The position numbers were made by a program, and so were the translations under genes. A stretch of 41,529 nt of DNA from assembly GCA_030685015.1 (NCBI GenBank), contig JAUXWS010000034.1, forward strand, positions 1 through 41,529, in the 5' to 3' direction. The notes under the pieces were generated by a model, which did no database searches, was not told the origin of the DNA, and saw only the letters and a list, made by a program, of their open reading frames with translations. This stretch comes from a bacterium. GTDB lineage: Bacteria > CAIWAD01. Shown piece after piece: positions 24,507 through 41,529 of this stretch (the stretch's first letter is position 1; every line of letters starts with the position of its first letter).

Positions 24507-25124
24507 ATGTTGATCATCGTCAATGGCAGGCGCCGTCCGGAGCTGGAGGCCACCCTGGCCGGGCTGGACGCCGGCATGACCCTGGAGCGGGTCGGGGCCG
24601 AGCTCTTCCAGCGCGGCGAGCTGGTGGTGAGAGTGGAAGTGGACGGACAGGACCTCACGGGCCAGGACCGCGAGCTGTGGGGCGGGCGCACGGACGTGGC
24701 CGAGCTGCGCCTGGAGACGCAGTCGCCGCGTGCCCTGCTGGAGGGCAGCCTGCGCGTCAGCCGCGAATGGCTGCCGCCTTTGCGCTCCGAACTGGCCTCC
24801 TGCGCCGACCGCTTTCGCCGTGGTGAGGACGCCGCGGCCATCGACGCCCTCATCCGCGTGGTGGAGGGCCTGCGCCTGCTCTTCGTGGGCGTGGGGCAGA
24901 TCCAGCGCCTGGCCGCCAACCAGGGCCTCTTCCGGGACACGGGCCTGCCCGAGGGCCTCGTCTCCGACTTCCAGAACGAGATCCCCCGCCTGCTGGACGA
25001 GATCATCCAGGCCCAGGAGCGCCACGACTGGATTCTCCTGGCCGATCTGCTCGAGTACGACGTGATGGACCGTCTGGCCCAGTGGGAGGAGACGGTGGAC
25101 ACCCTGCTCGGCGTGCTGGCGTGA
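24507..25124 (+). CDS. Uncharacterised protein in flagellar context
   Basis: 205 residues, soluble, no signal peptide. Residues 1-~75 are predicted mainly beta (LIIVNGRRRPELEATL, LVVRVEVDGQDLTG), followed by an all-helical part (SPRALLEGSLRVSREWLPPL, AIDALIRVVEGLRLLF, LLDEIIQAQERHDWILLADL). I do not recognise a family with certainty. A G-run (GGGGGGGG) lies just upstream of the ATG as a likely ribosome site. The 85-base gap before it holds a GCCGGAC/GTCCGGC dyad (24465-24488) without a T-run and a GCCGATTT resembling a sigma-28 -10 but lacking a -35. It overlaps the next gene by GTGA, so the two products probably act together; a flagellar assembly helper is a guess. Confidence 0.8.
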   Translation: MLIIVNGRRRPELEATLAGLDAGMTLERVGAELFQRGELVVRVEVDGQDLTGQDRELWGGRTDVAELRLETQSPRALLEGSLRVSREWLPPLRSELASCADRFRRGEDAAAIDALIRVVEGLRLLFVGVGQIQRLAANQGLFRDTGLPEGLVSDFQNEIPRLLDEIIQAQERHDWILLADLLEYDVMDRLAQWEETVDTLLGVLA

Positions 25125-25483
25125 GCCCCCCCGCCGCCCGTCAGGCCGCCCTGGAGGAGTGGATCGCCCTGGGGCGCGCCTTCCTCCTGGCCCATCGCCC
25201 CGGCGCCGAGCTGGACGCCCAGGCCCTCACCGACCTGCTCCAACGCCGCGACGAGCTGCTCCCCCGCATCGACCGCCGCGAGCCCATGGACACCGCCGAG
25301 GCGGAGGCCGCCCTGCGCCTCAAAGTGATCGAGGAGGAACTGGTGCGTCGAGTGGAGCAGGATCTGGAACGCCGCCGCCGCGAGCTGGACGAGCTGGACC
25401 AGACCCGTCGCCTCCTGCATGGCTACGCCACGGAGCGCGATGATCCGGCCCCGCCCGCCCGCTTCCTGGACATGAAGAGCTGA
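25121..25483 (+). CDS. Possible FliT/FlgN-type flagellar chaperone
   Basis: 120 residues from a GTG overlapping the previous stop. Almost entirely helical and rich in Glu, Arg and Leu. The segment LRLKVIEEELVRRVEQDLER and the following DELDQTRRLLHGYA resemble the C-terminal helices of FliT-like export chaperones, and an early helix AALEEWIALGRAFLLAH fits their N-terminal helix. Length matches FliT (about 100-120). This family is short and poorly conserved, so the call rests on helix pattern and position after the flagellar glycosylation operon. Alternative: a generic coiled-coil protein. Confidence 0.6.
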   Translation: MSPPAARQAALEEWIALGRAFLLAHRPGAELDAQALTDLLQRRDELLPRIDRREPMDTAEAEAALRLKVIEEELVRRVEQDLERRRRELDELDQTRRLLHGYATERDDPAPPARFLDMKS

Positions 25484-39629: not shown

Positions 39630-39663
39630 GGACAGCCCCCGCCTCGGCGGGGGCTGTCCCTTT
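39630..39663 (+). terminator. Intrinsic terminator of the large secreted-protein gene
   Basis: A 14-bp perfect G+C-rich stem (GGACAGCCCCCGCC and its complement) with a 2-base centre, followed by C and TTT, starting 25 bases after the stop. Confidence 0.85.
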
Positions 39664-39703: not shown

Positions 39704-39891
39704 ATCCCGTCACAGCTTGGACTCGCAGAGTGAATTCGCTTTTCACAGCAGCCGATAGACGCAATGTCAATCGCTTAACACACGAACCGTCCGACAGCGG
39801 CGGACGGAGTTTGCCGCCGAGAACGCGGAGGATCCCCCAGCGGGGCATCGCGAGGCCCGTTCTGGATCATCGCCAATACTCTGGAGGAGTC

Positions 39892-41529
39892 ATGGAGGTG
39901 GAGTCCCACTTGTCTCGTCACGCGCTGCCGGCCGTCATAGAAGTGGACGCGGCAGCCTGCGTCAATTGTCACGCCTGCATCCAGGCCTGTCCAGCCAAAC
40001 ACTGCAACGACGTTTCGGGCGAGAAAGTGAGGATCCATGCCGACCGCTGCCTGGGCTGCGGGGCCTGCGTCAAGGCCTGCCAGCACAAGGCCCGCAAGCT
40101 GGTCGACGACACGCCGGCCTTTTTCCGGGATCTGGCCGCCTGCGTGCCCATGGTGGCGGTGGTGGCGCCCGCCGTGGCCGCCGTCTTCCCGCAGCGCTGG
40201 CTGAACTTCAACGGCTGGATGAAGCATCTGGGCGTGGACGCCGTGTTCGACGTCTCCTTCGGTGCCGAGTTGACCGTCAAGACCTACCTGGACCACGTGG
40301 AGAGGAACAATCCGAAGGCCGTGATCGCCCAGCCTTGCCCCGCCATCGTCAGCTACATCGAGATCTACCGGCCGGAACTGCTGCCCTATCTGGCCCCGGC
40401 GGACAGCCCCATGCTGCACACGGCCCGCATGATCCGCCAGTTCTACCAGCAGTACCGCAGCCATCGCATCGCCGTGATCAGTCCCTGCGCCGCCAAGAAG
40501 CGGGAGTTCATGGACACGGGGGTGGTGGACTACAACGTCACCTTCAACCAGCTCATCGAGGAGCTGGAATCACGCCGGCAGCGCATGGACAGTTTCCCCG
40601 AGGTGGACTACGACAATCCCCCCGCCGAGCGTGCCGTGCTCTTCTCCACACCGGGCGGCCTGCTCAAGACGGCGGAGCGTTGGAACCCGCGCATCGGCGA
40701 TCTGACGCGCAAGATCGAAGGCCCGCATTGCGTCTACCATTACCTGGACAACCTTCCGCGCGCCATCGCCCAGGGCCACGCGCCACTGCTGGTGGACTGC
40801 CTCAACTGCGAACTGGGCTGCAACGGCGGCGCCGGCACGCCCAACCAGGGCGCCAGCCAGGACGAGATCGAGCACATGGTGGCCCAACGCTCCGAGTTGA
40901 TGCGTCGCCGGCACGCGACGGAGATCGAAGGGCAGGAATTGACGGTCCACGAGCGGGTGGTGGGCCTGGTGGACCAGTACTGGCAGCCCGGGCTCTACAA
41001 GCGCAGCTACCGGGACCGTAGCTCCAACAACACCGTGCGGCGACCCGGCCCGGCACAGGTCAAGGTCATCTACGAGGAAATGGAGAAGCACGGCAAGGAA
41101 GACATCATGGACTGCGGCGCCTGCGGCTACGGGCGCTGCGAGGAGATGGCGGTGGCCATCCACAACGGGCTGAACCGCCCGGACAACTGCCATCTCTTCA
41201 AACAGCGGCGCATCGAGCAGCTTCTGCAGAACGCCAAGGAGATGGAGCGCATCACCGCAGCGGCCACCCAGCTCAGCGTCGCGGTGGAGCAGATGCACAG
41301 CTCCATCGACGAGATTGCCCGCAACGCCACGGAAGCCACCGGCCAATCCCAGCAGAGCATCGTGCAGGCGCGGCTGGCCGGGGAGGCGATGGCCACGCTC
41401 AAGCAGTCGGGCAACGCCATCGGCGGCCTGGCTAGCACCATTTCCGGCATCGCTGCCCAGACGAGATTGCTCGCGCTCAACGCCACCATCGAGGCGGCCC
41501 GGGCGGGCGACCTGGGGCGCGGCTTTTCT
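39892..41529 (+). CDS. [FeFe]-hydrogenase-type H-cluster domain fused to a methyl-accepting chemotaxis signalling domain, 3' end cut
   Basis: The frame is open for 546 codons to the window end, with no stop. GGAGGAG precedes the ATG. Two [4Fe-4S] ferredoxin motifs come first (Cys23, 26, 29, 33 and Cys53, 56, 59, 63). The [FeFe]-hydrogenase large-subunit domain follows: Cys149 in QPCPAIVSYIE, Cys199 in ISPCAAKK, and Cys306/Cys310 in LNCELGCNGGAGTP, i.e. all four H-cluster ligands. The extra proton-transfer Cys of TSCCP is replaced by Pro, as in sensory rather than catalytic enzymes. An FeS domain (Cys408, 411, 416, 433) is next, then an MCP coiled coil with IAAQTRLLALNATIEAARAG at the receptor tip. 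No membrane segment or periplasmic domain, so a soluble receptor. Likely senses H2 or redox state and signals to CheA. Confidence 0.9.
   Translation, partial: MEVESHLSRHALPAVIEVDAAACVNCHACIQACPAKHCNDVSGEKVRIHADRCLGCGACVKACQHKARKLVDDTPAFFRDLAACVPMVAVVAPAVAAVFPQRWLNFNGWMKHLGVDAVFDVSFGAELTVKTYLDHVERNNPKAVIAQPCPAIVSYIEIYRPELLPYLAPADSPMLHTARMIRQFYQQYRSHRIAVISPCAAKKREFMDTGVVDYNVTFNQLIEELESRRQRMDSFPEVDYDNPPAERAVLFSTPGGLLKTAERWNPRIGDLTRKIEGPHCVYHYLDNLPRAIAQGHAPLLVDCLNCELGCNGGAGTPNQGASQDEIEHMVAQRSELMRRRHATEIEGQELTVHERVVGLVDQYWQPGLYKRSYRDRSSNNTVRRPGPAQVKVIYEEMEKHGKEDIMDCGACGYGRCEEMAVAIHNGLNRPDNCHLFKQRRIEQLLQNAKEMERITAAATQLSVAVEQMHSSIDEIARNATEATGQSQQSIVQARLAGEAMATLKQSGNAIGGLASTISGIAAQTRLLALNATIEAARAGDLGRGFS

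Follow-up and report, generated by a model that had tools for sequence, protein, structure and literature searches.

The window analysed here is an entire contig (C34, 41529 bases). Its last gene, whose frame is open from the ATG at 39892 to the contig end, joins a hydrogenase domain to an MCP signalling domain. The features of the locus are the following:

39631..39657, + strand: G+C-rich inverted repeat and then a short T run, terminator-like, after the upstream gene (read from the sequence)
39883..39889, + strand: Shine-Dalgarno-like GGAGGAG, two bases (TC) ahead of the ATG (read from the sequence)
39892..41529, + strand: hydrogenase-MCP gene, 5' 546 codons with ATG start; the remaining 102 codons and the stop are on contig C2 of the same genome
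39955..40089, + strand: two [4Fe-4S] ferredoxin motifs, C23/26/29/33 and C53/56/59/63 (Pfam; invariant in 25-26 sensory homologues)
40150..40833, + strand: [FeFe]-hydrogenase H-domain PF02906, residues 87-314, with C149, C199, C306 and C310 (Pfam, alignment, AlphaFold, Foldseek)
40324..40347, + strand: L1 loop IAQPCPAI, where Pro148 replaces the proton-transfer Cys and Cys149 is the cluster ligand
41110..41190, + strand: Cx2Cx4Cx16C [4Fe-4S] domain PF04060, residues 407-433 (Pfam; motif of PMC8163306)
41317..41529, + strand: MCP signalling domain PF00015, first part including the hairpin tip (Pfam)
41479..41529, + strand: 51-base overlap, exact and in frame, with one end of contig C2, on which the remainder of the MCP domain lies

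The initial annotation, made from the letters of the window, had proposed a single frame joining these domains, and the Pfam matches do all fall in one frame. Several Fer4 models scored above their cut-offs, as did Fe_hyd_lg_C (PF02906; 104.9 bits, cut-off 22.1), the FeS domain PF04060 (26.1 bits, cut-off 23) and MCPsignal (PF00015; 52.2 bits, cut-off 34.6). The four H-cluster cysteines lie at the positions that had been given for them, residue 148 is indeed Pro where the TSCCP loop has its proton-transfer Cys, and the further FeS domain carries C408-x2-C411-x4-C416-x16-C433, an exact match to the motif of groups C and D (PMC8163306). K202, at the position of CpI K358, is retained, and this Lys and all the cluster cysteines are invariant across 25-26 sensory homologues. 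The AlphaFold model of residues 1-445 has a mean pLDDT of 88.8, and Foldseek matched this predicted model to solved [FeFe] hydrogenases, the best being CbA5H (E 2.1e-19), at a low sequence identity of 17-22%. The tip of the MCP domain had been described as intact; the conserved tip is present, but two of its positions depart, with QTRLLALNA and GRGFS in the receptor where nine MCP-fused relatives and five MCPs of its own genome have QTNLLALNA and G[KR]GFA. We found no sign of a periplasmic part in the protein. The lone hydrophobic stretch (residues 81-99) was rejected as a transmembrane segment, since a core strand of the H-domain is predicted in this region.

How does the gene continue beyond the contig end? 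The reverse complement of contig C2 opens with the same 51 bases that close C34, in frame, and reads to a stop. This supplies the rest of the MCP domain and gives a joined protein of 648 aa. Among the seven matches of an MCP search of the source genome, the one on C2 starts part-way through the domain, at the contig end, and the 51-mer is absent from the other MCP loci that we fetched from this genome (best 39/51). A gene at a contig end could be an assembly join of two unrelated genes. However, the exact overlap leads in frame to the missing half, and nine relatives, one of them from a Firmicute and the others from other candidate phyla, keep the order H-domain-FeS-MCP. The occurrence of the same fusion in Riflebacteria, Bacteroidetes/Chlorobiota and Acetoanaerobium noterae indicates that it is not an assembly artefact, and we rejected a misjoined contig, to which we give almost no weight.

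The terminator-like repeat upstream suggests that the receptor gene may have its own transcript. A FliA-like promoter was rejected: one match with 3 mismatches was found at 39732-39758, among 9 in the window (6.1 expected, not significant). The sigma-54 pattern gave 23 matches (23.0 expected). The other genes of the window are mostly for nonulosonate and glycosyl transfer, with secreted proteins, a TPR protein, an MptE-like protein and a weak Maf match that falls below its cut-off. Among the window ORFs scanned we identified no flagellar structural gene, so that the suggestion of a motility-related window is no more than plausible. Glycosylation of flagellin by the products of these genes is a possibility. 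Adjoining the glycosyltransferase cluster, two ORFs (205 and 120 aa, at 24507-25480) have no Pfam match.

In the source genome, HydE, HydF and HydG are complete and score above the cut-offs of all three models. They lie on contig C90 together with NuoE-NuoF-HydA, the HydA being above the cut-off of the group A6 model. On this contig (8607-13975), an aspartate ammonia-lyase gene stands within the order hydG - aspartate ammonia-lyase - hydF - hydE. Contig C54 encodes cheA-cheY-cheX-cheW-cheY-cheB-cheR and a PilZ protein, and FliG is on contig C88. The maturases, CheA/CheW and the catalytic [FeFe] subunit, which had all been proposed as checks, are thus present, and the Che set is full (CheA/W/Y/X/B/R). 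The locus on C54 is the only CheA/CheW locus that we found in the genome, and the receptor gene is set apart from it. The MCP-linked protein is also the only sensory PF02906 match found there. Two further observations concern catalytic enzymes: many of the group A HydA that we compared have the L1 loop TSCSPGW and not TSCCPGW (L001, L081 and L089, among others), and a histidine-kinase-linked sensory H-domain protein adjoins a catalytic-type HydA in a genome of the same genus (L020).

Proteins of this kind have been predicted before. HydDB (2016) lists an [FeFe] group C2, "Chemotactic (putative)," with an undetermined role and a possible function in sensing H2 (PMC5037454). Like the C2 proteins, the receptor combines an [FeFe] sensory module with an MCP, with PF02906 and PF00015 in one frame and the MCP domain completed. 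Hence, we consider it to be of the C2 type, a placement made by domain fusion rather than by the k-NN/CDD classification of HydDB, and a further member of a kind predicted from sequence already in 2016. The novelty is therefore lower than the initial annotation implied. What we add is the clade, the exchange of output modules, the Riflebacteria operon, the case of genome G168 and the A. noterae homologue. In the open-access literature that we searched, we found neither an experimental study of a hydrogenase-MCP receptor nor a characterized C2 member.

The receptor shares the hallmarks of the sensory groups C and D (PMC8163306): two N-terminal [4Fe-4S] clusters, four H-cluster Cys, the Cx2Cx4Cx16C motif and the loss of C299. 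Group C (M2f) has a PAS domain after the C-terminal cluster, for which the receptor gave no match at E<=1. Group D (M2e) has Ser/Thr at M353, where the receptor has S197, but the E392, D393 and D403 of this group (TamHydS numbering; PMC13104023) correspond to V421, A422 and N432, as placed by motif spacing. TamHydS, of group D (M2e), is alike in its two N-terminal clusters, H-domain, Cx2Cx4Cx16C motif, lost C299, Ser at M353 and Leu at M497, but has no signalling domain (PMC8163306, PMC13104023). TmHydS, of group C (M2f), shares the cluster layout and the loss of C299, and differs by a PAS domain where the receptor has the MCP and by Gly at M353 in place of Ser. The group C histidine-kinase (C1-like) proteins of related genomes (L020, L029, L099) have the same cluster order before the output module; they differ by their L2 motif (GPC, versus SPC in the receptor), their separate tree branch and their kinase output. 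Beyond hydrogenases, the Aer2-type heme-PAS proteins are cytosolic chemoreceptors with a bound cofactor, soluble, and with the sensor joined to the MCP hairpin. Their cofactor is heme, whereas in the receptor it would be the H-cluster.

Relatives were sought by a scan of genome contigs, then in 396 and 40 genomes of the groups of two first matches, and in a plasmid collection. From the contig scan came four records, with identities of 52-60%: two from Riflebacteria MAGs and one each from a Bacteroidetes and a Chlorobiota MAG. The group searches added seven genomes above the threshold; in one, G425, Ns interrupt the gene. The Firmicute A. noterae is a further member, found in a 2.6-Mb record of the plasmid collection (NZ_CP154629.1); this record is filed as a plasmid but, because of its size, is probably the chromosome. 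A. noterae, reported from culture, has both the fusion and HydG; it is not among the matches listed in the CheA search of that collection. No close relative was found in four other genomes of the source phylum, its own genus included.

In a tree of 51 H-domains, built without characterized reference enzymes of groups C and D, the window's protein and 11 relatives form one clade (100/99 support), which excludes group A as well as the sensory proteins with a histidine kinase or only PAS. The long branch of A. noterae makes its exact placement unsure. The clade spans Riflebacteria, Bacteroidetes/Chlorobiota MAGs and one Firmicute, and its outputs vary: MCP in ten of the 12 (the window's included), PAS-kinase-receiver-Hpt in one (G168) and PAS-PAS-SpoIIE in another (G008). 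The H-domain of the window is nearest to those of Riflebacteria (up to 61%), whereas its MCP domain is matched better by an MCP from the source genome (48% over 149 aa) than by the MCPs of the clade; this suggests that modules have been mixed.

In 4/4 Riflebacteria genomes, the receptor is flanked by a CheA-like match on one side and a CheW match on the other. In G005, the Pfam scan of all seven ORFs of the operon revealed the order CheX-CheY-CheA-receptor-CheW-CheB-CheR; by layout comparison, without a Pfam scan, ORF lengths and starts in G428 and G425 resemble this operon. The Riflebacteria genomes with the receptor also have other CheA/CheW genes. With the threshold at E<=1e-10, the G168 assembly has a single PF02906 match, the kinase-fused member of the clade, whose contig also carries genes that match HydG and HydE. 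A lone sensor accompanied by HydG/HydE suggests that the H-domains of the clade indeed receive an H-cluster. Between the G168 sensor and the HydG/HydE genes lie a 416-aa ORF without NCBIfam match and two kinase/receiver genes (C107; L065/L097). Across the family, HydG was found in 10/12 genomes, a count that does not include the background rate in the sampled phyla. The two assemblies in which HydG was not found both have catalytic-type PF02906 matches, so that the absence is probably an assembly gap. All ten of the MCP-fused genomes that we searched have FliG, a count that covers G425 with its interrupted gene but not A. noterae and is likewise without a background rate.

We lean, a little beyond an even chance, toward a cytosolic chemoreceptor with a sensory [FeFe]-hydrogenase input and an MCP hairpin output acting on CheA/CheW. 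We infer that the H-domain carries the 2Fe subcluster; with its proton-relay Cys lost, turnover would be expected to be low. The sensed cue is most likely H2, or a redox state linked to H2, read through the H-cluster, and would result in H2-taxis or redox-taxis. HydEFG would load the 2Fe subcluster onto the H-domain, and the binding or oxidation of H2, or a ferredoxin-linked redox state, would alter the state of the H-cluster. The H-domain, the F-domain and the C-terminal [4Fe-4S] domain could then shift relative to one another, and this movement could pass to the directly joined coiled coil, changing CheA activity; CheY-P would alter flagellar rotation, and cells would move along gradients of H2 or fermentation redox. 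The C-terminal cluster of TamHydS is not reduced by H2 (PMC13104023). By analogy, we prefer a conformational route over a cluster-redox one, and signal transfer through the C-terminal cluster of the receptor is an unproven proposal. Against this reading stand the tip departures (QTR/GFS), the lack of a close relative in the phylum, the location of the gene away from the che genes and the two assemblies without HydG.

The alternative that we take most seriously, although we consider it unlikely, is energy or redox taxis, in which the N-terminal clusters would trade electrons with the ferredoxin pool and the H-cluster would report internal reductant rather than external H2. The invariance of the two ferredoxin-type clusters, the catalytic NADH-linked hydrogenase of the genome and the apparent lack of a periplasmic part are in line with it. 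Yet neither an H-cluster nor its maturases would be needed for this task, for which a simple module of FeS, PAS or flavin type would suffice, and G168 has maturase genes beside its sensor. If instead the H-domain lacked the 2Fe subcluster, it could be a plain FeS sensor of redox, O2 or CO, as the low identity to solved hydrogenases, the Pro of the L1 loop and the two member genomes without HydG might indicate. We find this improbable: the sensory homologues all keep the four ligands and the Lys aligned with CpI K358, the HydG count and the G168 contig point the other way, and TamHydS is active despite its own lack of the Cys (PMC8163306). Finally, the receptor could feed a chemosensory array with a non-taxis output, as might be suspected from the self-contained Che set of Riflebacteria genomes that have other CheA/CheW genes. 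This seems more improbable still, since the single CheA/CheW locus and the FliG of the source genome make taxis the simplest output there.

PMC4266047 cites a report of H2-directed taxis in Methanococcus maripaludis (Brileya et al. 2013); we found no H2 receptor named in the open-access literature that we searched. As far as this literature shows, the C2 class of HydDB is still a prediction. For the clade as a whole, we see an even chance that it consists of H2 chemoreceptors whose H-cluster gates CheA directly, served in Riflebacteria by a Che operon of their own, and that MCP, kinase and phosphatase outputs have been exchanged on one sensor. The homologue of A. noterae, a species reported from culture, the whole-Che operon of Riflebacteria and the G168 sensor, apparently the sole H-cluster protein of its genome, make the idea of an H2 receptor directly testable.
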